Source: a virus | Strand: one strand, 5' to 3' | DNA length: 27,579 nt | IMG/VR virus record: IMGVR_UViG_3300033146_001838 | Location: 1 to 27,579 of that record | Shown here: one piece after another, positions 16,264 through 27,483 of the stretch | Numbering within the stretch: the stretch's first letter is position 1 | Layout of the letters: each line of letters opens with the position of its first letter | Position numbers and translations under genes: made by a program | Notes under the pieces: model-generated | The model's input: only the letters and a program-made list of their open reading frames with translations | Told to the model about the DNA's origin: nothing | Database searches by the model: none

Positions 16264-17739
16264 ATGGACATAGGAGAGTATCTTGATACTTTGTACCCCA
16301 GTGAAAAAGAATATCTTCGTCGCGTGCAAAAAGGTACTGCTAACTGGTATCCACAAAGTCGCCCTCAGTGGGAGGCTTTTTTGTCAAGAGCAGACGAAGT
16401 GTTTTACGGTGGGGCAGCCGGCGGAGGGAAGACCGATCTTCTTCTTGGAATGGCTTCTGAATGTCATAAAAGTTCTGTTCTGTTTCGGAGGGTTTATCCA
16501 AACCTGAAAGGGATGATGCGCCGTGCTAGAGAAATTATCGGAACACATGGTAAAGAAAATAAATCGGATAAGTCTTGGTCAATTGGAGACAGAACCATAG
16601 AATTTGGTTCTGTTCAGTATGAAAATGATAAAACAAACTGGCAAGGACGTCCTCATGATCTAAAAGGATTTGATGAGTTAGCAGAATATACAGAAAGCCA
16701 ATATGTATTTATTTGTGGATGGACGCGTACTGCTATCAAAGGTCAAAGAGTTAGGATTATCTCGACTGGCAATCCGCCTACATCAGAAAGTGGCAGTTGG
16801 ATAATCAAAAGGTGGTCGGCTTGGTTGGATCCTAATAATTCAAACCCTGCAAAAAGTGGAGAGATTCGCTGGTATGCGATGGTTGACGGCGAGGAAATAG
16901 AACAAGATAATGGTGATGCGTTCGAGTATAACGGTGAAACAATTGTACCGCGTAGCAGAACTTTTATTAGAGCATTACTTGAAGATAATCCTTATTTGGC
17001 AGACAATGGCGCGTATAAAGCTGTTCTACAGGCTCTTCCTGAGCCATTGCGGTCACAAATGTTGTTTGGAGATTTCTCGAAAACGTCAGAGGCACACCCG
17101 TTTCAGGTTATTCCTACGGATTGGGTAAAACTAGCACAACAAAGATGGATTGACAGAGAAAAACCAGACACACCACTTACATCAGTTGGTGTTGATCCAA
17201 ATAGGGGTGGTACAGATAATATGGGAATCGCGAAATTATATGATAATTATTTTGATGAAATAGAAAAATATAGCGGGGAAATAGTGAAAGATGGTGCTAT
17301 TGCGGCTGAATTGATAAGGCAGTCTTTAGGAAATACAAATGCTTTGATCGGCATTGACGTAATTGGAATAGGTTCGTCTGCATTTGATCATGCCAAAATA
17401 ATGTATACTAATAACATTGTTCCTATCAACGCATCAGCATCTTCTAGTTACAGAGATAGAAGTGGGCTATTGAAAATGAGGAATGTAAGGGCAGAATACT
17501 ATTGGCGTTTGAGAGATTCACTTGACCCTGAACTTGGTGATGATATTGCTCTTCCTCCGGGGAATGAAGTGATTGCGGATTTATGTGCCGCGAGGTATAA
17601 AGTAAGTGCCGCCGGTATTTTGATAGAAGAAAAATCTGAAATAAAAAAACGTCTTGGAAGAAGTCCAGACGTAGGAGATGCAATTATGCTTGCGTTACAA
17701 GCACAGTTTTCAGGTGATAGCGGACTTCAAATATATTAG
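16264..17739 (+). CDS. terL: Phage terminase large subunit
   Basis: This 491-residue protein has an N-terminal packaging ATPase with Walker A GGAAGGGKTD (49-58), Walker B-like KGFDELAE (134-141) and coupling motif STGNPP (167-172). The C-terminal nuclease has acidic residues Asp311 (GVDPNRGG), Asp365 (IGIDVIG) and the Asp pair in GRSPDVGDAIMLAL. It cuts concatemeric DNA and pumps it into the prohead. Length is normal and the gene is intact. Confidence 0.96.
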   Translation: MDIGEYLDTLYPSEKEYLRRVQKGTANWYPQSRPQWEAFLSRADEVFYGGAAGGGKTDLLLGMASECHKSSVLFRRVYPNLKGMMRRAREIIGTHGKENKSDKSWSIGDRTIEFGSVQYENDKTNWQGRPHDLKGFDELAEYTESQYVFICGWTRTAIKGQRVRIISTGNPPTSESGSWIIKRWSAWLDPNNSNPAKSGEIRWYAMVDGEEIEQDNGDAFEYNGETIVPRSRTFIRALLEDNPYLADNGAYKAVLQALPEPLRSQMLFGDFSKTSEAHPFQVIPTDWVKLAQQRWIDREKPDTPLTSVGVDPNRGGTDNMGIAKLYDNYFDEIEKYSGEIVKDGAIAAELIRQSLGNTNALIGIDVIGIGSSAFDHAKIMYTNNIVPINASASSSYRDRSGLLKMRNVRAEYYWRLRDSLDPELGDDIALPPGNEVIADLCAARYKVSAAGILIEEKSEIKKRLGRSPDVGDAIMLALQAQFSGDSGLQIY

Positions 17740-17748
17740 GAGTTACCT

Positions 17749-19167
17749 ATGAATTGGTTATCAAAAATCAGAGTACGGTTGGGTGTAGGAATCCTCCCGC
17801 CTGATGTAAAGGGTGTTGCTGTTAGATCATCGTCTGGTTCTTGGGGAGGTAGTGACACTCCAAAGGTGAAAACAAATTACACCGCGTTGGTAAAAGATGG
17901 ATGGCGGCGAAACGAACTAATCTATGCGTGTTCGTCAAAGAAAGCAAGGACGGCTAGTCAAGTTGCTTTGAAGGTTTATGACAAAAAGAATAACAAAGAA
18001 TTGCCTGATCACGATCTTAGGAAATTGATTAAGAATCCTAACCCTAAGATGACAGAATTTGATTTCTGGTCGAGTGTCTTTATCTTTCAGGATTTTGCTG
18101 GTAAAGCTGTTTACGAGAAGGTACGCTCTCGCTCCGGTAAAGTTGTGCAGTTGTGGCCAATGCGTCCAGATTGGGTAACAGAGAAAAAAGACGGTAACTA
18201 TACATACGGGGAAGGACAATATAATGCTATCTCGTTTAAGAGAGAAGATGTCTTAGTCTTTTCGTTGTGGGATCCTCTAGGACAATACAATGGATACCCC
18301 CCTGTTGCGGTTGCCGCAAGGGTAGGAGATATTGATAATTCGGTCACGGATTATATTCGCTTGCTTTTCAAAGAGGGTGGTGTTCCGCCCGGAATACTCA
18401 AGACCACTCAAGGAATCAATGAAGCAATAGCAACTAGAGCAAGAGAAATTTGGAAACAACAGTATGGGGGGTTTAATAACTGGCTCACACCAGCAGTTTT
18501 GGGTCATGATATGGAATATCAAAAAACCGGTCTTGGGTTGGATGATATGCAAATTGAATTACTGGACGAGAGAAACGAAACGCGTATTTGTATGGCGATG
18601 ATGGTTCCTCCAACAGTTGTTAGCGCAAGTATTGGATTAAAGCGGGCGATAATGTCAAACGCTCAAGAATTTCGCCGTGACTGGTGGCTGGATGATTTGA
18701 TCCCAATGTATAAGAACTTGAATGATACATTGTTGAATCAACTTGTCCCCGATTTTGGCGATACCATAGAAACACGGTGGGACTTTCATAACGTCCCTGC
18801 ACTTGCTATTTTAATTGAATCAAAGAGAAAATGGGCGTTGGAAGCCTTTTCGTCCGGTGCGATTACGCGAAACCAGTTCTACGCTGAGATTGGCATGGAT
18901 GAATTAGGTCCGGTCGGCGATGTGTATCTTGTCTCTGCACTGGCGGTTGAAGTACCAGCGGGGAAAGCGGGCATGGTCCAAAGCGTGTCGCTGTCCAAGT
19001 CTTTGCCCTCACCTGTTAGCGCAAAAGCAGAAGATCCGGAAGATATGGACGAGCGTCTTGAACACGAGGGAATTATTGCTGACGCAATGGGTAAATATCT
19101 TGATGGTCAATTAGAGCGTATTAAGTCACTTGTGGAAGCACAGGTGTCTCATAGACCGAAGGAGTAA
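17749..19167 (+). CDS. Phage portal protein (HK97-type)
   Basis: This 472-residue protein has portal hallmarks: NELIYACSSKKARTASQVALKVYD, LIKNPNPKMTEFDFW, PMRPDWV and LFKEGGVPPGILKT. These correspond to the wing and stem of HK97-type portals. It forms the dodecameric ring at the prohead vertex through which terminase packages DNA. TAGGAG precedes the ATG. The C-terminal ~60 residues are acidic, as is usual. Confidence 0.93.
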   Translation: MNWLSKIRVRLGVGILPPDVKGVAVRSSSGSWGGSDTPKVKTNYTALVKDGWRRNELIYACSSKKARTASQVALKVYDKKNNKELPDHDLRKLIKNPNPKMTEFDFWSSVFIFQDFAGKAVYEKVRSRSGKVVQLWPMRPDWVTEKKDGNYTYGEGQYNAISFKREDVLVFSLWDPLGQYNGYPPVAVAARVGDIDNSVTDYIRLLFKEGGVPPGILKTTQGINEAIATRAREIWKQQYGGFNNWLTPAVLGHDMEYQKTGLGLDDMQIELLDERNETRICMAMMVPPTVVSASIGLKRAIMSNAQEFRRDWWLDDLIPMYKNLNDTLLNQLVPDFGDTIETRWDFHNVPALAILIESKRKWALEAFSSGAITRNQFYAEIGMDELGPVGDVYLVSALAVEVPAGKAGMVQSVSLSKSLPSPVSAKAEDPEDMDERLEHEGIIADAMGKYLDGQLERIKSLVEAQVSHRPKE

Positions 19168-19169
19168 TT

Positions 19170-19721
19170 ATGCCTGTTGACGATATATTTTGGAATGAAG
19201 AAAGTCAAAAACTCTACGAAATACTGTTTCCGCTTATTTCCTCCGCGTCTTTAAGCGGGGCGAGAAATGCTTACGATGCTCTTGGCGGTGTTGCTGAATT
19301 AGGTGTAGCTTGGGATGTAGTAAATGACGATGTGATAAAGTGGGCAACCGCTCATACAATTGAGGTTGTTGCACAAGTTACAAAAACTAGCATGGCGGCG
19401 TTTGTGGAACACTTTGATAGTTGGCTTTTGTCCGGTGAGACAATGGATTCGTTGATCGAATTGCTCACTCCGTATTATGGTGTTGTACGCGCGGAAATGA
19501 TAGCGGTTACTGAAACAACTCGCGCTTTTGCGTTGGGCAATTTAGAGGCGTGGAAAAGTTCTGGTGTGGTATCTGGATGGAAATGGCGCACAGCGATGGA
19601 TGATATAGTATGTCCGATTTGTACAGAGAAAGAAAGAAATAATCCGTATGAATTTGGTGATGAAACCCCGCCTGCTCATGTCCGTTGCAGATGTAGTATG
19701 TCTCCGGTAATGAAAAAGTAA
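19170..19721 (+). CDS. MuF-like minor head protein
   Basis: This 183-residue protein has the Mu F/SPP1 gp7 C-terminal signature TETTRAFALGNLEAWKSSGVVSGWKWRTAMDD followed by CPICTEK...PPAHVRCRCSM. It is shorter than typical full MuF proteins (about 250-400 residues) but includes the conserved domain, and starts 3 nt after portal. Minor head proteins of this class enter with the portal and help head assembly. AAGGAG 5 nt before the ATG. Confidence 0.88.
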   Translation: MPVDDIFWNEESQKLYEILFPLISSASLSGARNAYDALGGVAELGVAWDVVNDDVIKWATAHTIEVVAQVTKTSMAAFVEHFDSWLLSGETMDSLIELLTPYYGVVRAEMIAVTETTRAFALGNLEAWKSSGVVSGWKWRTAMDDIVCPICTEKERNNPYEFGDETPPAHVRCRCSMSPVMKK

Positions 19722-19742
19722 TCAAATAACGCTCAAAATACA

Positions 19743-19806
19743 GTCGTCATCGTGTCACAAGTAGTCACAACGATTATACGAGCGTAACCTATACAATCTA
19801 CCCTAT
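19743..19806. repeat. Truncated module element E (GTCACAAG tandem)
   Basis: Right after the minor head gene is a copy of only the upstream part of the repeat modules: CGTCATCGTGTCACAAG, tandem sites GTCACAAG (19754-19761) and GTCACAAC (19764-19771), and ACCTATACAATCTACCCTAT (19787-19806). The terminator and promoter halves are absent; an open frame begins instead. Confidence 0.85.
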
Positions 19807-19836
19807 TTGTTCTATACAAAGCCCTACGGCGTTCTT

Positions 19837-20202
19837 ATGCTCAAAAAGTTTCTTAATTTCCCGTCCATCAGCGAAGTGGAAGGCGTTACACCCTCTGCTT
19901 CTCTTGGCGTTGGTTATCAAGCGCAGATTGTCGCAGTCAACAAGCGAACAGATCGAGAAATTACAAGACTTGTCCGGCGTGCCTTGCCCTTGGATAGAGA
20001 AGTCCCCGCAGGAACATTCAAACTCCGTTATATTCTTGGTGAGGGATATCCTCATGTGTCTATTGACGATGAGAGTGTGCTTCGGTTATTTGCGTCTCCG
20101 TTTCTGAATATGCGGGATCTCATCGCCTTGGAATGGGCTAAAGAATTGGACTTAAACAAGTTGCCTAAGTATCGCGTGGTGTTGGAGAAAATAACAGAAT
20201 GA
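19837..20202 (+). CDS. Hypothetical protein in the head region
   Basis: This 121-residue basic protein (ISEVEGVTPSASLGVG...RLVRRALPLDREVPAGTFKLRYILGEGYPHVSIDDESVLRLFASPF) has no recognised family. Neither ATG 19837 nor the in-frame TTG at 19807 has a Shine-Dalgarno sequence, and the frame begins right at truncated element E. It may therefore be a displaced gene without its normal start. It overlaps the next gene by ATGA, as expected for a head-neck operon member. Confidence 0.6.
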   Translation: MLKKFLNFPSISEVEGVTPSASLGVGYQAQIVAVNKRTDREITRLVRRALPLDREVPAGTFKLRYILGEGYPHVSIDDESVLRLFASPFLNMRDLIALEWAKELDLNKLPKYRVVLEKITE

Positions 20203-20630
20203 TAAAAATGGTTATCCTTGGCGTGAAAAAGGTTGCTAATGGTTTTGGTAAGGCTTCGATAGAAATGCCAAAGCAGATTGAGGCTTCGACTCTCGAATCT
20301 GTTTTGTACGTTCTCAGCGAGATGCCTCCGTATCCAGCACCTCCACCAAACTCCACCTACCAAAGAACTCTTTTGCTAGGAAGGTCCGTCTCTGGTTTAA
20401 TGGGTAAGGCACCATCAGCTTTGTCTCGTGTTGAAAACGCCTTCGGGTCTATACGCGGTATTGTTGGTACAAGAGTTAAACATGCGCCCTATGTAATAGA
20501 TGAAGATCGGCAAACTGGCATTCACAAGGGACGTTGGTTCACCCTGCAAGGCGTTGTTCGTGGATTACAGTCCGGTATTCGTGATATTTACGCCAAAGGT
20601 ATTAGTGCATTGTTAAAGAGAAGTTTTTGA
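20199..20630 (+). CDS. HK97 gp10-like head-tail neck protein
   Basis: This 143-residue protein has the segment MPPYPAPPPNSTYQRT, RVKHAPYVID and a C-terminal GIHKGRWFTLQGVV. I recall this layout in phage neck proteins of the HK97 gp10 type, which connect head and tail. It starts at an ATGA overlap (alternative ATG 20208). Its presence implies a tailed virion although no tail gene follows. Confidence 0.7.
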   Translation: MIKMVILGVKKVANGFGKASIEMPKQIEASTLESVLYVLSEMPPYPAPPPNSTYQRTLLLGRSVSGLMGKAPSALSRVENAFGSIRGIVGTRVKHAPYVIDEDRQTGIHKGRWFTLQGVVRGLQSGIRDIYAKGISALLKRSF

Positions 20631-20818
20631 TGTCAGAACCCAAGCCAGTGTATTTTGTTCGTGACAAGAATCCTTCTCCCTATGCAGAGGTCAGGTGCGC
20701 TTCTTGCAATAGGCTCCTGTTTAAGTTGAAAGGAACAGCATCTATTGAAATTGTTTGTCCGAGGTGCAAGATTGTAAATAAAATCTCTCTTGTAGTTACA
20801 GCAACGGACAAGAATTGA
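20630..20818 (+). CDS. Com-like zinc finger protein
   Basis: This 62-residue protein contains VRCASCNRLLFKLKGTASIEIVCPRCKIVNKI, the CxxC-x(n)-CPRCK.N arrangement of Mu Com family zinc fingers. Mu Com binds mom mRNA to open its translation start, but most family members lie in phage head/tail regions without a known target. ATG 20630 overlaps the preceding TGA. No mom gene is visible in the window. Confidence 0.75.
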   Translation: MSEPKPVYFVRDKNPSPYAEVRCASCNRLLFKLKGTASIEIVCPRCKIVNKISLVVTATDKN

Positions 20819-20870: not shown

Positions 20871-20964
20871 ATCTCCGATCCCTGAAACTCCCTCTTGACA
20901 CTATATATACCATGTGCTAGAATAGGGTACATTCAAAAACAAACCAAGTTACGAGGAGACAGTA
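20865..20964 (+). promoter_or_regulatory. Promoter half-module D
   Basis: The promoter and leader part is as in modules A and B: TTGACA 20895-20900, 17-bp spacer, TAGAAT 20918-20923, then AGGGTACATTCAAAAACAAA and GAGGAG before the ATG at 20965. The GTCACAAG tandem is not here; a lone copy of it (element E) sits about 1.1 kb upstream. Confidence 0.85.
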
Positions 20965-21195
20965 ATGGATAACCAACAGGTAGAAAAAGAATTAGAAACC
21001 GCGAAAAAAAATCTTGTAGAATTAAAAAAATCACTTGCTCTTTATGCTTCTCGGGTTTCTGTTACTCAAAGTAACAGAGATTATGATGCGTATAAAGTAG
21101 CGTTAGCGTATAAGCAGATAGCATCGGCAAAGGTTGATGCTGTTTCGTTAGAAATTGAATTGCTTGAAGACCTTATTTCGCATTTCGGAAAGTAA
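20965..21195 (+). CDS. Small coiled-coil protein
   Basis: This 76-residue protein is almost entirely helical (VEKELETAKKNLVELKKSLALYASRV...SAKVDAVSLEIELLEDLISHFGK) with heptad-like leucines, consistent with an antiparallel coiled coil. Expressed from half-module D with a strong ribosome site. It is the last gene before the cassette array. Function unknown. Confidence 0.72.
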   Translation: MDNQQVEKELETAKKNLVELKKSLALYASRVSVTQSNRDYDAYKVALAYKQIASAKVDAVSLEIELLEDLISHFGK

Positions 21196-21335
21196 TCATT
21201 GCAAAAATGTTTTTTGGAAAGTGGATTATCTTAATAACCAGTTGATGCAGAAAATGCACCAACTGGAAAGAATGCCGCAATATATTGAAAATTGGATATT
21301 ATGCGGCTTAAAAGTAGCTTAAAAACGAGTTAGGT
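21196..21335. other. Left junction of cassette array: hairpins and R'-like GTTAGGT
   Basis: The gap holds two hairpins, CCAGTTG...CAACTGG (about 21239-21268) and GCCGCA...TGCGGC (about 21275-21308), then GTTAGGT (21329-21335). GTTAGGT continues as GTCTAAATT, like the cassette boundary at 21599. It fits an R' box where a first cassette begins. A matching R'' and symmetrical stem could not be found, so it may be a degraded attC or a secondary insertion site. Confidence 0.45.
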
Positions 21336-21599
21336 GTCTAAATTGGAGAAGAAATTATGAGTAAAGAAGAAACTTTCAACCAGTGGCTAAAAACGGAAAT
21401 GCCAAATTTGCGTTCTGCAATGATGACAGAAAATGAAATGTTTGCATCGGCATTTAATGCAGGCTATCGGGCGCAACACCTAACCCCTGTTGTAGCTGAT
21501 TCGGCTAATGCTCCGCGTTTACATCGGTCAGAAGTAACTGAAATTTTCGAATGTCCAACGTGCGGTTCTATACTCACGCCGAACAGCTAAACTAATTCG
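21330..21599 (+). mobile_element. Integron-type gene cassette 1
   Basis: Bounded by R' boxes GTTAGGT (21329) and GTTAGGC (21599), with cleavage expected after each G. It holds one short gene (21357-21590) followed by attC at 21478-21605. The two boundaries share the sequence GTTAGGYRTCTAAATT, as expected from a common site family. Confidence 0.6.
21357..21590 (+). CDS. Cassette 1 protein, small, with CPTCG
   Basis: This 77-residue protein of unknown function has a helical N-terminus (FNQWLKTEMPNLRSAMMTENEMFASAFNAGYRAQ) and a single CPTCG near the C-terminus. TTGGAG lies 9 nt before the ATG. Its last third is encoded inside the attC site, so the cysteine tail may be partly a by-product of the recombination site. 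Confidence 0.6.
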   Translation: MSKEETFNQWLKTEMPNLRSAMMTENEMFASAFNAGYRAQHLTPVVADSANAPRLHRSEVTEIFECPTCGSILTPNS

Positions 21600-21605
21600 T
21601 TAGGC
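21478..21605 (+). other. attC site 2 (128 bp)
   Basis: R'' ACCTAAC (21478-21484) and R' GTTAGGC (21599-21605) are complementary at six bases. Between them AGCTG-A-TTCGGC (21494-21505) pairs with GCCGAACAGCT (21578-21588), leaving one extrahelical A in the left arm. Spacers are 9 and 10 nt, as in attC at 22083. The long variable loop lies within the coding region of cassette 1. Confidence 0.75.
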
Positions 21606-22170
21606 ATCTAAATTTAGTTCGAAGGAGAAAATATGTACGATAGCACAAAAGATACAAGCGACCACAAGAAAGCGGTTAAACACTTTATGTCCGTCGCAAT
21701 TCTCGAGCTGACACAAAGAGCAATCGTCCACGATGCAAGCAAATTAGAGTCACCAGAAAAAGAAATGTTTGATAAATACACTCCGTTGCTAAAAGACACA
21801 ACTTACGGCAGCGATGAGTATAAAAAATATCTCTCTGAAATGGGCGTTGCGCTGAAACATCACTACGAAAACAATACTCACCATCCAGAACATTTTGAAA
21901 ATGGTATTGCTGGCATGTCGCTATTAGATTTACTAGAAATGTTTTGCGATTGGCAAGCAGCATCTTTGCGCCACGCAGACGGCGACATTGTAGAGAGCAT
22001 AGAAATAAACCGCAAAAGATTCGGCATGTCTGACCAACTCCATCGTATCTTTTTGAATACATTAAAAGAGTTGTGGGGCAATGCCTAACATTAAATGCAC
22101 TTGACCTATGGCGGGCGCAGGCGTTTTTAGTCCGTAAATTATAACCGCCATAGGCAAGTGATTATCACCG
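21600..22170 (+). mobile_element. Integron-type gene cassette 2
   Basis: Runs from TTAGGC after the G at 21599 to the G at 22170. It holds the DUF5662 gene and the attC site 22083-22176. The gene's stop codon overlaps the R'' box (GCCTAAC), a compact layout usual in cassettes. Confidence 0.75.
21633..22088 (+). CDS. DUF5662-like protein
   Basis: This 151-residue protein has the DUF5662 signature: IVHDASKLESPEKEMFDKYTP, ALKHHYENNTHHPEHFENGI and MSLLDLLEMFCDWQAASLRH. The conserved His/Asp residues suggest an HD-like metal-dependent fold. The family is found in phages and integron cassettes; its substrate is not known to me. GAAGGAG sits 6 nt before the ATG. The reading frame ends in GGCAATGCCTAA, merging into attC. 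Confidence 0.82.
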   Translation: MYDSTKDTSDHKKAVKHFMSVAILELTQRAIVHDASKLESPEKEMFDKYTPLLKDTTYGSDEYKKYLSEMGVALKHHYENNTHHPEHFENGIAGMSLLDLLEMFCDWQAASLRHADGDIVESIEINRKRFGMSDQLHRIFLNTLKELWGNA

Positions 22171-22176
22171 TTAGGC
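22083..22176 (+). other. attC site 3 (94 bp)
   Basis: R'' GCCTAAC (22083-22089) is perfectly complementary to R' GTTAGGC (22170-22176). The stem is CACTTG-A-CCTATGGCGG with CCGCCATAGGCAAGTG, 16 pairs with one extrahelical A in the left arm, and an asymmetric ~30-nt terminal loop. These are the hallmarks of an integron attC site folded as a single-stranded hairpin. Spacers between R boxes and stem are 8-9 nt. Confidence 0.92.
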
Positions 22177-22202
22177 ATCTTCTTTCTCGGACGAGTTCTG
22201 AA

Positions 22203-22278
22203 ATTGGTCTACCAATCCCTTGACTTTGTGCGTACAATCTGCTATAATGTAGGTAGATGAGTGAGACAAACTCACTCA
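22203..22278 (+). promoter_or_regulatory. Cassette 3 promoter with operator-like site and 5' hairpin
   Basis: TTGACT (22220-22225), 17-bp spacer, TG-C then TATAAT (22243-22248): a near-consensus extended -10 promoter. The inverted repeat ATTGGT-CT-ACCAAT (22203-22216) abuts the -35, a possible operator. The transcript would start with the hairpin TGAGTGAG-ACAAA-CTCACTCA (22258-22278), which could protect its 5' end. CAGGAG follows before ATG 22298. Confidence 0.8.
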
Positions 22279-22297
22279 CGAAATCAGGAGAAACAAA

Positions 22298-22624
22298 ATG
22301 AACGCAAAAATCGAAGCCAGAATAAACGAACTAGAAAAAATGACAGAACTCCCCGCAGACGAAAACGCAAAAGTTTACGATGGCATAAAACACGCGGTCA
22401 CGGTAATTGAAGACGCGCTGCTAAAAATGAAATCCGCAGGTGTTCCCGCATCAAAAGCAATGTTCGAAGCACCTGAATTTTTTCGCTCAATCGTAAGAAA
22501 GCAATGGGGAGGCGACACCGTAAGTTTTGTAAACGAGAAAGGTCACGGACAAGTTACTCTTAATGCTACCTTTGGCGATTTACCAAGTATGGTACGCGAT
22601 TTAGCCGAAGAAACATTGAGCTAA
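22298..22624 (+). CDS. Cassette 3 first gene, hypothetical
   Basis: This 108-residue helical protein (ARINELEKMTELPADENAKVYDGIKHAVTVIEDALLKMK...FFRSIVRKQWGGDTVSFVNEKGHG) has no recognised family. It has its own strong promoter and ribosome site (CAGGAG). Pairing with a small downstream gene 4 nt later invites comparison with toxin-antitoxin cassettes, but no known family was identified, so this stays a hypothesis. Confidence 0.72.
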   Translation: MNAKIEARINELEKMTELPADENAKVYDGIKHAVTVIEDALLKMKSAGVPASKAMFEAPEFFRSIVRKQWGGDTVSFVNEKGHGQVTLNATFGDLPSMVRDLAEETLS

Positions 22625-22628
22625 TAAA

Positions 22629-22859
22629 ATGACTAAACCATATTGCACCCAAAACGATGGAGACTGCTCTAGTTGCAGTCTCTCATCTTACGGCAGAGAT
22701 TGCCATAATGTTAGGATTATCACATCGCACAAGGGGGGGCGCACAGAGCGCATCTCGCTAAGAGCCACGCTAGAGTGTAAAGCAGAATTCGAGAAAATTG
22801 GAATTAGCGCAGGTGATTTGTTTGAGTGGGCAGTTGCTAATTATCTGGGCAATGCCTAA
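22629..22859 (+). CDS. Cassette 3 second gene, cysteine-rich
   Basis: This 76-residue protein has an N-terminal cysteine cluster (CTQNDGDCSSCSLSSYGRDC, residues ~5-24). The C-terminal part is RISLRATLECKAEFEKIGISAGDLFEWAVANYL. It ends LGNA-stop where TAA lies in the R'' box, exactly like the cassette 2 gene, so the site has shaped the C-terminus. No strong ribosome site, so coupling to the gene 4 nt upstream is likely. Confidence 0.7.
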   Translation: MTKPYCTQNDGDCSSCSLSSYGRDCHNVRIITSHKGGRTERISLRATLECKAEFEKIGISAGDLFEWAVANYLGNA

Positions 22860-22872
22860 CCCCGCGTTAAGC
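22854..22872 (+). other. Truncated attC half-site at right end of array
   Basis: GCCTAAC (22854-22860), 5 nt, then GTTAAGC (22866-22872) matches the left half of an attC (RYYYAAC-N5-GTTRRRY). No right half follows; phage-type coding sequence begins at 22893. The array therefore ends in a broken site. Confidence 0.6.
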
Positions 22873-22892: not shown

Positions 22893-23135
22893 ATGTCTTA
22901 TTCGATTAAGAGTTTACAAAGTTATCAAGAGACTTACATGCTTGGTGCTATAAGGAGTTACCATGAATCAATAAAAGATAAAAACTCGGTGATATTGATA
23001 GTTCTCTCTGCTATAGATGGAGGAAATCTTGGTAAAGCTAAGATGCTCCTCTCTCAACTTGACGATATTCCATCAAGTTTTGTAATTAGTCAGCATAGAG
23101 ATTATTTGAAAGGTGTAATTAGTCGTAGACTTTGA
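22893..23135 (+). CDS. Hypothetical protein after the cassette array
   Basis: This 80-residue helical protein (SYSIKSLQSYQETYMLGAIRSYHESIK...VILIVLSAIDGGNLGKAKMLLSQLDD) has no recognised family. ATG 22893 follows GAGAAAG at very short spacing; a TTG at 22878 is an alternative. It opens a block of four genes with overlapping or near-touching ends. Its natural upstream region was probably replaced when the array landed. Confidence 0.58.
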   Translation: MSYSIKSLQSYQETYMLGAIRSYHESIKDKNSVILIVLSAIDGGNLGKAKMLLSQLDDIPSSFVISQHRDYLKGVISRRL

Positions 23136-23566
23136 TAAACTTCTTGCGGTTATATACCGAGAATGGTATACTTGTATTTGCTCATCCTCCTTTTGAGAGC
23201 GCAGTACAGATAGTGGCTAGGGATATGGTGAAGTCCCTAGCCACTATCGTACAGGAAAGAGGTTTCCCCGTGAAAAACGATAGAGAAAGAAGAGAAGAGA
23301 TCATTCCTGATTTATTCGGGTATCTCTCTGCTTGGATTGAAATAAATTCCAAATGGGAATTTGTACTGAAACGCAATACTTACAATGCGGCTATGTCCCT
23401 AGAATTTCGCAAAGACCGCCGGAGAACAAAATGGTTTGAGCATGAATGTTTGGACCAAGTTGACAATATAGTTTCTCTTGCTTGCCGTAAGTTTCGGATG
23501 GTTGAAAAACGTTGGATTATTGACGGTATTATCACCTACACGTTGGTTCCAAAAAGACTGCCATGA
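23132..23566 (+). CDS. Hypothetical protein with hairpin in its 5' region
   Basis: This 144-residue frame opens at a TTG that overlaps the previous stop (TTGA). A GTG at 23270 with AGGAAAGAGG 9 nt upstream is a better-looking start and would give 98 residues. The upstream 46 codons still read like protein (VFAHPPFESAVQIVARDMVKSLATIVQERGF). A perfect 15-bp inverted repeat lies between the two starts. The C-terminal half is basic with FRKDRRRTKWFEHECLDQVDNIV. Function unknown. Confidence 0.58.
   Translation: MINFLRLYTENGILVFAHPPFESAVQIVARDMVKSLATIVQERGFPVKNDRERREEIIPDLFGYLSAWIEINSKWEFVLKRNTYNAAMSLEFRKDRRRTKWFEHECLDQVDNIVSLACRKFRMVEKRWIIDGIITYTLVPKRLP
23204..23252. repeat. 15-bp perfect inverted repeat, 10-nt loop, extended to 19 bp
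   Basis: GATAGTGGCTAGGGA (23209-23223) pairs perfectly with TCCCTAGCCACTATC (23234-23248); outside it GTAC (23204-23207) pairs with GTAC (23249-23252), leaving one bulged A. No T-run follows. It lies just before the GTG and ribosome site at 23253-23272, so it may be an RNA control element or operator. Confidence 0.8.
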
Positions 23567-23853
23567 CTTTTGATAAACAAATAATCAATTTGCTCGGATA
23601 TTTGGCTCTGATTGATCTTGTGCATCACACAACGATAAAGTTAAACGGAATTGGACTTGATGATTTGATCATGTTAGAAATCCGGTACAGAAAAGCCCTT
23701 GAAATGCTAGGAAAACCTAAGCCATGGCAAATTGGTCGGCGTTGGATTTATAAAACAGCAATAGAAGAACACAACTCTGCTGTTCGCTTAATTGCTTTGA
23801 CAAAAGGGTATCCGGAAATACCGGATACAAACATTGTCATAGTATTAGAGTAA
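23563..23853 (+). CDS. Hypothetical protein
   Basis: This 96-residue protein starts at an ATGA overlap. Helical N-terminus (INLLGYLALIDLVHHTTIKLNGIGLDDLIMLEIRYRKALEMLGKPKP), then GRRWIYKTAIEEHNSAVRLIALTKGYPEIPDTNIVIVLE. Not recognised. It is followed 2 nt later by a small membrane protein. Confidence 0.62.
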   Translation: MTFDKQIINLLGYLALIDLVHHTTIKLNGIGLDDLIMLEIRYRKALEMLGKPKPWQIGRRWIYKTAIEEHNSAVRLIALTKGYPEIPDTNIVIVLE

Positions 23854-23855
23854 TC

Positions 23856-24014
23856 ATGTATACAAAATTTCTGGTGAAAGAACTAAGCAAAAGATACGCA
23901 TTGAGGCTTATTGATCTCTTCGTATATTCTATATTTTTAGCCGTTGCTATTCTCTGGATTCTTCTTGGTGCTTTTGAGATATTTCTACAAGGATACTATG
24001 GAGATATAGGTTGA
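23856..24014 (+). CDS. Small single-pass membrane protein
   Basis: This 52-residue protein has a basic N-terminus (YTKFLVKELSKRYALR) followed by one hydrophobic helix of about 24 residues (LIDLFVYSIFLAVAILWILLGAFEIFL) and a short polar tail, so it is probably an inner-membrane protein with N-in topology. It ends the four-gene block. Small phage membrane proteins include holins and accessory proteins, but no endolysin is beside it, so the role is open. Confidence 0.6.
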   Translation: MYTKFLVKELSKRYALRLIDLFVYSIFLAVAILWILLGAFEIFLQGYYGDIG

Positions 24015-24043
24015 AATGTTTAAAGAAATACTTCGATTACCGT

Positions 24044-24176
24044 ACATCTCATTGAACGCTCACGGAGTACTCACTGAGTACTCTCTCTTAATTAAGTTAA
24101 GTTAAGTTTAATTAAGATTAGTTAAGAACTACATGGGCGAAGTTGTTTTGTTTTGTAAGAAAGTTCCTCACAGGCT
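24044..24176. repeat. 112-bp direct repeat, copy 2, with fused module fragment
   Basis: 24044-24155 is identical to 1-112. It is then joined directly to TAAGAAAGTTCCTCACAGGCT, which at the window start lies at 204-224. So bases 113-203 of the copy-1 arrangement are missing here, and the promoter half is gone too. This looks like a deletion derivative of the whole leader. Confidence 0.9.
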
Positions 24177-24194
24177 CGCTAAAAAGGATTTGCA

Positions 24195-24470
24195 ATGTCA
24201 AGATTAAGCTATTTTGATAACAGAAGATTTAGAAACCCGCTTTGTGTATTTATGCCAACTGGAGACGAAGAACTGGATCGTCTTTTTACTGGTCCTATGA
24301 GCATGTATGAGCTTAAACTTTCTGTGAGGCTAGGCAGTGTTCCGGACGGTATGATTATTAAGCAGGGAGAAGATAGGTACTTGTATATTTACAAGTGCAG
24401 GGCTTATCGTTGTAAAGAGGATGGCGAGTTGATTCTGACTGTTTCAGGCAAAGAAAAGGTGGTGATTTAA
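24195..24470 (+). CDS. Hypothetical protein
   Basis: This 91-residue protein (SRLSYFDNRRFRNPLCVFMPTGDEELDRLFTGPMSMYELKLSVRLGSVPDGMIIKQGEDRYLYIYKCRAYRC) has no recognised family. AAGGA lies 9 nt upstream. It starts 18 nt after the deleted module copy, so it has lost, or never had, a module promoter. Confidence 0.65.
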   Translation: MSRLSYFDNRRFRNPLCVFMPTGDEELDRLFTGPMSMYELKLSVRLGSVPDGMIIKQGEDRYLYIYKCRAYRCKEDGELILTVSGKEKVVI

Positions 24471-24484
24471 TTTTCCTCTATCCA

Positions 24485-24507
24485 GTATATACATTCTGTG
24501 ATATAAT
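24485..24507 (+). promoter_or_regulatory. Candidate promoter with GTATATAC upstream
   Basis: TG-A-TATAAT (24499-24507) is an extended -10 with a poor -35. GTATATAC (24485-24492) lies between the -35 and -10 positions, as in module C. A leader of about 70 nt with a small hairpin (GGGCAAAGTCCC) and GAAGGAG leads to ATG 24582. Confidence 0.65.
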
Positions 24508-24581
24508 GCTTTTGTATTAAACAACTCGCATAGTCGAGACATCACTTACTTATAGGGCAAAGTCCCGAAGGAGAAGTACCA

Positions 24582-24887
24582 ATGAAACCCCCAGAAAATT
24601 TCAGTAAGATAATCAAACGTAAGTTATATGATACCGCTACTGCTACATTGCTCGCAGGAAATGACCATTGGGATGGTCACAACTTCGAGAGAGGTGGGCG
24701 AAACACGTTTCTATATCGCACACCAAAAGGTGCGTATTTTGAGGTCAATCTCTCACAATGGCAAGGCGAGGGCGATTCTCTCATCCCTCTTTCAGAGGGT
24801 GATGCAATTGAAGTATTTGAAAACATGAGCGAACAACGCGTAAAGTTTTCAGAAGCGTTTCCTGATGTTGAGGTAACTGCGGCTTAA
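24582..24887 (+). CDS. Conserved phage/mobile-element hypothetical protein
   Basis: This 101-residue protein (KRKLYDTATATLLAGNDHWDGHNFERGGRNTFLYRTPKGAYFEVNLSQWQGEGDSLIPLSEGDAIEVFENM) matches a compact family I recall from phages and mobile elements (HNFERxGRNTFLYRTPKGxYF...QWQGE), with unknown function. It has its own promoter, a strong ribosome site and a terminator, so it is a single-gene accessory unit of the 'moron' kind. Confidence 0.8.
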   Translation: MKPPENFSKIIKRKLYDTATATLLAGNDHWDGHNFERGGRNTFLYRTPKGAYFEVNLSQWQGEGDSLIPLSEGDAIEVFENMSEQRVKFSEAFPDVEVTAA

Positions 24888-24888
24888 C

Positions 24889-24925
24889 AAATAGCCTCCG
24901 TGCTTTATAAGTGCGGAGGCTATTT
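24889..24925. terminator. Terminator hairpin after the single-gene unit
   Basis: AAATAGCCTCCG (24889-24900) and CGGAGGCTATTT (24914-24925) form a perfect 12-bp stem with a 13-nt loop. T's at the 3' end of the right arm and A's at the 5' end of the left arm make it possibly bidirectional. Confidence 0.8.
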
Positions 24926-24955
24926 GAAATAAGCACATTACACGAGAACTAGCTT

Positions 24956-25069
24956 ATGGAAAATGTAGATTTGAGACTTGGCGATTGCTTGGAAATTATG
25001 CGAACATTGCAGGATGACAGTATTGATCTTGTCCTTACCGATCCAGCTTACGAAACGATGATGAAGTAG
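24956..25069 (+). pseudogene. Truncated DNA methyltransferase remnant
   Basis: A 37-codon frame reads VDLRLGDCLEIMRTLQDDSIDLVLTDPAYE, then stops. This is the start of an N6-adenine/N4-cytosine methyltransferase of the beta class: GDC motif I-like region and catalytic (D/N)PPY-type box, here DPAY. Only the first ~35 of an expected 200 or more residues remain. After ~25057 another frame reads DEVDSLSEMLIDLIKDLLEDENE-stop, apparently the tail of a different protein or of the same gene after a deletion. The methylation activity is certainly lost. Confidence 0.7.
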
Positions 25070-25123
25070 ATAGCCTAAGTGAGATGTTGATTGACCTTAT
25101 TAAAGATCTGTTGGAGGATGAAA

Positions 25124-25816
25124 ATGAGTAAAGTTTGCGCTTTGTGTGGCTTCGCGATTAAGGATGACGAAGAAGTATATAATTCTCACGATGATGATTG
25201 TCCTAAGAAGATCGACCCTATTGCCGATTGCGATTGTGACAATCCCGCTCACCAGTATTGTGATGAAATGGTTAGCGAGCAAATTGGCGACTTTTTCTTT
25301 TTGAAAGAAGGTTGGGAAGAAATCATCGGTTTGACAAATTCAAACCCGATGACTGTTGTTGAGTGGAACAAAAAGTATCCGGTTGGTACACCAGTTAGAT
25401 ACCGTCCTGTTTTTGGTGGTTTACATTATGTAGATACAAAAACAGTTGGCAAGGCTATGATTGATGATGGAATCGCTATTGTAAAGATTGAATATGCAAA
25501 TATGTCCGTTTCTCTGTCTGCTGTTTTTCCACATGTAGCCCCTATCGTTCAATCTTTGAATGATTTGCCCAATACGGAAACGATTAACTCCATTCCCAAA
25601 GACGTGATGCTTGATATTTTCGTAATACGTAACCAGAAAGGAAAAGACGATGTTCTTTACCGATTTTATAAAGCGGTTGGTACGATTTTAGATGATGATA
25701 TGTCCGCTGATTACAAGGTGCGTTTTATAAATGTGGCGTGGGCGGTTGCATGTAGGGGAATTTCCCTTATCGAAGAGAATAATGCTCAAGTCAAGGCTCC
25801 CACATTGGTTTTATAA
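25124..25816 (+). CDS. Hypothetical protein with N-terminal zinc finger
   Basis: This 230-residue protein starts at ATG 25124 (TTGGAGGAT 5 nt upstream; upstream in-frame ATGs lie in remnant sequence). CALCGF...SHDDDC near residues 5-24 looks like a CxxC zinc module, followed by a DCDCDNPAHQYC stretch. The middle (WNKKYPVGTPVRYRPVFGGLHYVDTKTVGKA) is a small beta barrel-like domain. Family not recognised. Confidence 0.68.
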   Translation: MSKVCALCGFAIKDDEEVYNSHDDDCPKKIDPIADCDCDNPAHQYCDEMVSEQIGDFFFLKEGWEEIIGLTNSNPMTVVEWNKKYPVGTPVRYRPVFGGLHYVDTKTVGKAMIDDGIAIVKIEYANMSVSLSAVFPHVAPIVQSLNDLPNTETINSIPKDVMLDIFVIRNQKGKDDVLYRFYKAVGTILDDDMSADYKVRFINVAWAVACRGISLIEENNAQVKAPTLVL

Positions 25817-25825
25817 GGATTCCCC

Positions 25826-26293
25826 ATGAAACCTATACAATCTACTCTGAAATTGATTTACGATGCGCTACGCCCGTCCTACGAAGGACAGCCGAAGAAA
25901 ATTGTTTATGAAGAAATAGCGCGGCGTGTTAACGATCTTGCCGGAAAGACTTGGACGTGGAGATATATACAGAGCGTTTTGTCCGGTACAGTTTCTCCAA
26001 AGGAGGAGTTTGTTCGTGTCGTTACGGTGATAGCTGAAAGTTTACATGGCGAGGGGGTAATGGTTGGTACTGAGGATGTTGTTGTTCGTGCAAAGTTTGG
26101 TACCTTGCACAGTGGGGCTGTTGTTTTAGCCTCCAGTAAACCCTGTAAGAATCCATCGTGTACGGTTTATTTTGTCCCAAAGCAGAGCGGTCAAAAGTAT
26201 TGCTCGCAGGCTTGCCGTAAACATAATTGGTGGCTTCGTAAGCAAGTAAAGATGTCTAATATATTATTAGAGGAGAGTAAAGAAAATGTGTGA
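25826..26293 (+). CDS. Putative DNA-binding protein with C-terminal zinc ribbon
   Basis: This 155-residue protein has a helical N-terminus resembling a helix-turn-helix (KIVYEEIARRVNDLAGKTWTWRYIQSVLSGTVSPKEEFVRVV, ~24-64) and a C-terminal zinc ribbon (CKNPSCTVYFVP...QKYCSQACRKHNWW, ~117-146). Its first 20 nt (ATGAAACCTATACAATCTAC) reproduce the string found in repeat modules A, B, C and E. AAGGAT upstream. It may be a regulator that reads that string, though this is only suggested by the match. Confidence 0.72.
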   Translation: MKPIQSTLKLIYDALRPSYEGQPKKIVYEEIARRVNDLAGKTWTWRYIQSVLSGTVSPKEEFVRVVTVIAESLHGEGVMVGTEDVVVRAKFGTLHSGAVVLASSKPCKNPSCTVYFVPKQSGQKYCSQACRKHNWWLRKQVKMSNILLEESKENV

Positions 26294-26564
26294 AGAAAAT
26301 GATGATAGTTTTGCTAAGAAAATATGTGGTCTTTTTGATAGCATGATCAAAGCTCGTCCGGTGCCTGTTGAGGTAGTTTTCAACCCGCCGCATACGATTA
26401 TTAACTGGAGCGATGGAGACAAGACTATCGTCAAGGTACGCGAAGGCGAGAAATTTGACGAGCATGTTGGTTTCTTGGCTTGTGTTGCTAAAAAGTATTT
26501 TGGCGGTCACAATGCCTACAAGAAACTTATTGAAAATGCTGTTAGGCAAAATAAGGTCAAATAA
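26286..26564 (+). CDS. Small phage protein of a widespread family
   Basis: This 92-residue protein contains VEVVFNPPHTIINWSDGDKTIVKVREGEKFDEHVGFLACVAKKYFG. I recall this signature (NxPxTIxxWxDGxKTxVK...G..FD...G...AxAKK) from many Gram-positive phage genomes; no function is established. GAGGAGAG precedes the ATG, and it overlaps the preceding gene by 8 nt. Confidence 0.78.
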   Translation: MCEENDDSFAKKICGLFDSMIKARPVPVEVVFNPPHTIINWSDGDKTIVKVREGEKFDEHVGFLACVAKKYFGGHNAYKKLIENAVRQNKVK

Positions 26565-26565
26565 C

Positions 26566-27483
26566 ATGTCGACAACGATTGAGTGGGCTAGTAACCCGGA
26601 TGGAACACGAGGTGAGTCTTTGAACATGGTTTTTGGTTGTACAAAGAAATCAGCCGGATGTACAAACTGCTACGCTGAACTTATGGCAAAGCGTTTGAGG
26701 CATATTGGTAATAAGAATTATCAAACAGCAACCGATGATAAAGGTTGGACCGGAAAGGTAAGTTTTGACCCTAGTGTAGCCGAAAAAGTTTCTAAGTGGC
26801 GAAAGCCTCGGACAGTGTTTCTCAATTCAATGAGTGACACCTTCCACGAAGATTTAGACGATAGAGCTATTTTCAATATGCTTGGAATGATAGCAAAACA
26901 CCCAAAGCATACGTTCATTTTGGTAACGAAACGCGCAGAACGAATGAAAATTATGGTGAATCGCTATGTGAATGTTTATTGTCATGGGGATCCTCTTCAA
27001 AATATGTGGTTGTTAGTATCGGCTGAAAACCAAAAAACAGCCGATGAGCGCGTGTTGTTTTTGATAGCAACTAAAGCTATTGTCCGTGGGATCAGTGCAG
27101 AACCATTATTAGGGTTTATTAACTTTGGTTTTGATGGAATAGTGCCAAGTACAATATCAAGAGCATACAGACCCGTCTCTGATTTTATTGACTTTGTGAT
27201 CGCCGGCGGAGAAAGTGGCAACAACGCAAGATCGGTTAATCCAAACGCGTTTCGTAACATCAGGGACCAGTGCGTAGCAAGCGAAGTAAAGTTTTTCTTT
27301 AAACAGTGGGGAGCGTATGCCCCGCTTGGAGAAATCAGTGGTCTTGGAGAAAAAAACTTCAACTCTAGGCGCTATCATATTTTTGATAGTAATGAGAAAG
27401 TTTTTTACAACGGAAAGAAAAAGAACGGTCGCCTTCTTGATGGTAGAGAGTGGAACGAGAGACCAGAATTCGGATGTAGATAG
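26566..27483 (+). CDS. Phage Gp37/Gp68 family protein (DUF5131)
   Basis: This 305-residue protein has the DUF5131 signature: TIEWASN near the N-terminus, FGCTKKSAGCTNCYAE with Cys25, Cys32 and Cys35, VFLNSMSDTFHEDL, TFILVTKRAERM, SAENQKTADER, SAEPLLG, VIAGGESGNNARSVNP and VKFFFKQWGAY. These form a TIM-barrel with a radical-SAM-like cysteine cluster. The family is frequent in phages and integrative elements; its reaction is unknown to me. It starts 1 nt after the preceding stop. The longer upstream frame is a shadow. Confidence 0.92.
   Translation: MSTTIEWASNPDGTRGESLNMVFGCTKKSAGCTNCYAELMAKRLRHIGNKNYQTATDDKGWTGKVSFDPSVAEKVSKWRKPRTVFLNSMSDTFHEDLDDRAIFNMLGMIAKHPKHTFILVTKRAERMKIMVNRYVNVYCHGDPLQNMWLLVSAENQKTADERVLFLIATKAIVRGISAEPLLGFINFGFDGIVPSTISRAYRPVSDFIDFVIAGGESGNNARSVNPNAFRNIRDQCVASEVKFFFKQWGAYAPLGEISGLGEKNFNSRRYHIFDSNEKVFYNGKKKNGRLLDGREWNERPEFGCR

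Follow-up and report, generated by a model that had tools for sequence, protein, structure and literature searches.

A probable three-cassette integron array without an integrase in the genome of an uncultured tailed phage

Positions 21330-22872 of the DNA analysed here, an entire IMG/VR virus record of 27,579 bases (the window), most probably constitute an integron cassette array without an integrase (CALIN), comprising three cassettes of which the third is truncated, and carried within the genome of a tailed phage that has not been cultured; we place the probability of this reading at about 0.85. An integrase-less cassette array at a phage location is the reading that best fits all the evidence. 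Two full attC sites lie 478 bp apart and are accompanied by a half-site, which places the array in the CALIN class within a record that is possibly incomplete. All four cassette ORFs are on the + strand, and gene orientation agrees with the orientation of the attC sites. An earlier note on this DNA had described such an array and taken its arrangement to be non-standard. The latter view has to be given up, since Qi et al. (2023, PMC9892861) reported 17 CALINs in a set of 10,705 phage genomes, and IntI1 recombined five of the six phage attC sites assayed in that study. As phage-borne arrays recombinable by IntI1 are known, the array in the window is a further example of a kind already described.

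The attC sites were sought with a structural scan of both strands that required complementary RYYYAAC and GTTRRRY boxes and a stem of 10 bp or more containing one extrahelical base. Over the 27.6 kb, the scan returns only attC1 (21478-21605, + strand, 128 nt, 12-bp stem) and attC2 (22083-22176, + strand, 94 nt, 16-bp stem with an extrahelical A), at the very positions that the earlier note had given for its two sites, and the same scan of 100 dinucleotide shuffles yields zero sites. attC1 combines the R'' of cassette 1 with an R' contributed by cassette 2, and there is one mismatch between its R boxes; those of attC2 are perfectly paired. The R' boxes (GTTAGG) are located at 21329, 21599, and 22170, and the R'' boxes (CCTAAC) at 21479, 22084, and 22855; the latter hexamer occurs four times in the whole window, three times within the array. 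In known attC sites the bottom strand is the one that recombines, and in the bottom-strand folds both sites adopt the canonical form, with the R boxes paired and the central spacer unpaired. The '' arm of each fold carries two extrahelical bases, a G and, six pairs further, an A, at a spacing equal to that of the aadA1 attC of plasmid R100. This A is the extrahelical base described previously. The orientation derived from these bases is consistent with that of the genes. The fold energy of attC2 stands out (z -4.95), and attC1, owing to its large loop, has a fold energy that is not unusual (z -1.4). The array closes, as had been proposed, with a broken site: truncated attC3 (22854-22872, + strand) is a 19-bp half-site made up of the R'' box GCCTAAC, the spacer CCCGC, and the L'' box GTTAAGC, its ' half being absent. 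It has 22 of 29 bases in common with the '' arm of attC1 (repeat family D3).

The window was also searched with a covariance model (R2) of our own construction, distinct from the IntegronFinder model and trained on seven attC sites, all of them bacterial: six taken from Pseudomonas-family integron loci, and that of aadA1 of R100. Runs of N in three of the training sequences let the loop length vary, and this long-loop model could reach the long sites of the window, which a short-loop version could not. Applied to bacterial integron loci, the model detects many attC sites, and it also detects the published phage attC clusters of PH101 and TJE1 (20.0-24.6 bits). In the window, attC1 ranks first (29.8 bits, E 1e-5), attC2 second (20.3 bits, E 0.0038), and the half-site third (15.2 bits, E 0.09). 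The earlier note had allowed that both sites might score at background for such a model, and they do not, with the qualification that the score of attC2, taken alone, is borderline, a lone site in an unrelated contig reaching 20.0 bits. Since lone background sites attain about 20 bits, the structural scan is the stronger support for attC2, compared with its covariance score. A lone attC-like site, which may be due to chance, is present at 3533-3662 of L005 (20.0 bits, 8-bp stem, R boxes fully paired); this phage contig encodes a terminase with 62% identity to that of the window.

The ends of the cassettes agree with these sites. The first bases of a cassette are expected to complement its own R'', because both derive from one circular molecule. 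Cassette 1 (21330-21599, + strand, 270 bp) has the first bases TTAGGTGT (start sequence GTTAGGTGT) and the R'' ACACCTAAC, and cassette 2 (21600-22170, + strand, 571 bp) the first bases TTAGGCAT and the R'' ATGCCTAAC, each pair matching over 9 bp. Cassette 3 (22171-22872, + strand), whose 3' end is lost, likewise opens with TTAGGCAT and has its own R'', ATGCCTAAC, at 22852-22860, so that cassettes 2 and 3 share both the start GTTAGGCAT and the R''. The match extends over 9 bp to the own R'' and over 6 bp to the R'' of a cassette of the other type, which identifies attC1 as a hybrid of two cassettes; such hybrids are normal in arrays. The three cassettes in one orientation that were initially proposed are thus recovered from their ends as well as from the four + strand ORFs. 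It is extremely improbable that the sites are instead fortuitous inverted repeats, terminators, or mRNA folds: hairpins abound in phage genomes, and two strong ones lie directly to the left of the array, but here the sequence of the R boxes, the extrahelical bases, the match at the cassette ends, and the orientation of the genes are all concordant, and none of the 100 shuffles produced a match.

The cargo consists of small genes, all on the + strand. The ORF of cassette 1 (21357-21590, 77 aa) spans the entire attC1 hairpin, so that the loop of the site encodes its zinc-ribbon-like C-terminal end, a CPTCG half-ribbon; family searches with this ORF gave nothing above cut-off. The ORF of cassette 2 (21633-22088, 151 aa), with its stop codon within R'', encodes a DUF5662 protein (PF18907, 122.9 bits against a cut-off of 27), and the collections searched contain relatives in 16 phage records and in one plasmid; its structure prediction is poor (mean pLDDT 56), and a fold search gave no significant match. 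Cassette 3 contains a candidate promoter-like site (22220-22248, + strand, TTGACT-17-TATAAT with TG, 11 of 12 consensus bases) and two ORFs. The first (22298-22624, 108 aa) has no reliable family match, and its fold model (pLDDT 77) no significant match in the fold search; the second (22629-22859, 76 aa), whose stop codon is again within R'', has a weak PHROG match only. PADLOC detected no defence gene among the cassette ORFs.

At the left edge, cassette 1 begins at a simple site (21317-21335, + strand) consisting of the L box GCTTAAA, a 5-bp spacer, and the R box GTTAGGT. The R box of this site contains the R' GTTAGG at 21329 and is the R'-like GTTAGGT with which the array had been said to open. 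The pattern RYYYAAM-N5-GTTRRRY has four matches in the window, compared with 0.17 expected; one of them is this site, and two represent both strands of the half-site at 22854-22872. Read from the sequence, the L' of the left edge and the L'' of the right edge are complementary at six of seven bases, as is expected between two attC sites of one family. The site at the left edge may represent an attI-like core, what is left of a lost attC (its ' half), or a chance occurrence. A search for a full attC ahead of cassette 1 gave none. Our tentative view is that the array was once part of a longer one and was cut within attC sites, or that it is an insertion trimmed afterwards. Immediately to the left, at 21238-21307, are two strong hairpins (CCAGTTG..CAACTGG and GCCGCA..TGCGGC, fold z -5.7) without the T-run of a usual terminator; considered as attC candidates, they were rejected, since on folding they do not fit attC.

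Were 21317-21335 a working attI, the phage would own a capture site and act as an integrase-less integron, borrowing the IntI of successive hosts to collect, express, and pass on cassettes. The 19 bp do show the layout of an attI core, with L and R boxes 5 bp apart (compared with the attI1 boxes in PMC12901181), and a candidate promoter-like site (20895-20923, + strand, TTGACA-17-TAGAAT with TG, 11 of 12 consensus bases) is located upstream of the ORF at 20965-21195 and of the array. However, this ORF and the two hairpins separate the promoter from the array, the same 19 bp could also be a remnant attC (the ' half) or a product of chance, direct repeats of the attI type are not demonstrated, and no second phage with a different array at the locus was found. 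We therefore consider a phage-owned attI unlikely.

Phage-type genes lie on both sides of the array. The structural genes on its left (16264-20818, + strand) encode a terminase large subunit, a portal, a Mu F-like head protein, two ORFs, and a Com-like zinc protein, in agreement with the terminase, portal, and minor head genes named at the outset. Such an ordered series of terminase, portal, and head morphogenesis genes is that of a tailed phage; major capsid and tail genes were not recognised in the record, and the contig may be partial. Further left, the record encodes a replication initiator, a DnaC-like loader, ParB, RtcB, and RadC. The right flank (22893-27483, + strand) contains small ORFs, an HNH-like protein, and a DUF5131 (phrog_2045) protein. 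Within an ORF downstream of the array, a perfect 15-bp inverted repeat with a 10-nt loop is found at 23209-23248 (GATAGTGGCTAGGGA).

The composition of the array is foreign to the surrounding phage. Its 4-mer distance is 0.460, compared with a mean of 0.332 elsewhere (sd 0.022, maximum 0.393), a deviation of about six sd, and the flanks resemble each other (0.185 for the right flank, a mean of 0.207 for the left subwindows). Three of the four cassette ORFs have a coding-strand GC skew of about zero; the skew of the other genes is positive. An array unlike both of its flanks would also be compatible with an assembler having fused bacterial integron DNA to phage DNA, but phage-like flanks of matching composition are present on either side, so that a chimera would need two false joins, and attC arrays occur in many other viral-labelled records; we regard such a fusion as very unlikely. 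The nearest relative found, contig L021, keeps the order of terminase, portal, Mu F-like protein, the ORF at 20199-20630, and Com-like protein at 48-62% identity. Past the Com-like gene, it carries different genes, including a XerC/D-like recombinase far under the NCBIfam integron-integrase cut-off. The best isolate matches of the terminase are from phages of several proteobacteria and cyanobacteria, at less than 46% identity. Neither an empty site nor a second array was seen among the terminase and portal relatives, which do not cover the locus, and an exact search of viral contigs with the '' half of attC1/attC3 gave no match. A looser version of this pattern had three matches in genome contigs, all without stems and judged to be due to chance.

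As the earlier note had it, no integron integrase is visible: the record, which may be incomplete, encodes no PF00589 protein (tyrosine recombinase/integron integrase), and intI, the hallmark of a complete integron, is not present in it. Recombination of the array would therefore require the IntI of a host. Under the CALIN reading, an integron integrase in some bacterium would have joined the cassettes into a row, and the array may then have reached the phage by one of two routes: insertion by an integrase at a single GTT-type site, or illegitimate recombination that also cost the third attC its end. IntI insertion at non-classical genomic sites, termed attG, is described (Loot et al. 2024, as cited in PMC12901181), and attG-type insertion is a conceivable entry route. 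In a host making IntI, the bottom strand of attC1 or attC2 could fold and recombine in trans, which would shift cassettes between the phage and the host integron. The cargo would be expressed either from an upstream phage promoter, a source that we infer together with the spread of cassettes by the phage, or from the promoter-like site in cassette 3.

Alternatively, the array may be a fossil, brought in with bacterial DNA by one illegitimate event, its sites disused and its cargo neutral. The truncation of the third attC, the hybrid nature of attC1 with its one R-box mismatch, and the lack of an integrase in the record point in this direction; in contrast, attC2 is intact, the ORFs are open, and hybrid attC sites are normal in arrays. 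Moreover, comparable phage attC sites recombined with IntI1 (PMC9892861). We hold a disused array to be possible but somewhat doubtful.

In a side survey of IMG/VR, two narrow attC patterns matched 80 stretches (L062-L140 and L019), more than 50 of which have two or more attC sites by count of covariance matches. Among 39 larger records tested, a phrog_2 terminase is found in 17 and an integron integrase over the cut-off in three; 16 of the 17 terminase records have attC sites without intI, one of them (G341) with two distant attC sites on opposite strands. In several cases the array lies well inside the record (11.7-15.4 of 59 kb in G332, 20.6-21.9 of 33 kb in G314, and 21.0-22.6 of 55 kb in G312), and some of the surveyed arrays may be host DNA adjoining a prophage. 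In L019, the strict scan misses sites, and the covariance model finds a real array. The 34.5-kb G305 has attC clusters at 153-1177 and 8415-8747 of L060 (six sites by the covariance model), and an ORF for a Lar-like zinc ribbon overlaps one attC.

Judging from these counts, viral-labelled contigs may contain attC arrays more often than the published figure of 17 CALINs per 10,705 phage genomes would indicate; if so, the frequency of cassette movement by phages becomes directly addressable. Phage-borne cassettes would provide integrons with a route between bacterial lineages without a plasmid or transposon, and the example in the window, with its intact canonical attC sites, is readily assayed.

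Among known systems, the virulent phages TJE1, PH101, and P12002L (PMC9892861) resemble the window in having few attC sites, small cassettes, and no integrase, but they are unrelated phages with other cargo. By the strict stem scan, the window sites have longer perfect stems than those of these three phages, with no TJE1 site returned, and a looser scan of the three gave weak candidates only. G305 (L060/L061), a P22-like phage contig, similarly combines attC arrays and small ORFs with the lack of an integron integrase, yet differs in phage type and attC family; as far as the literature shows, its attC clusters apparently have no earlier description. Sedentary chromosomal integrons, e.g., the L055 array with an adjoining integrase-like gene, share the cassette and attC anatomy of the window, which in contrast has no intI, no proven attI, and three cassettes only. 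Compared with the class 1 integron cassette aadA1 (R100), the window has a different stem sequence, longer loops, no resistance gene, and no IntI1 or attI1, but in both cases two extrahelical bases are carried six pairs apart on the '' arm.
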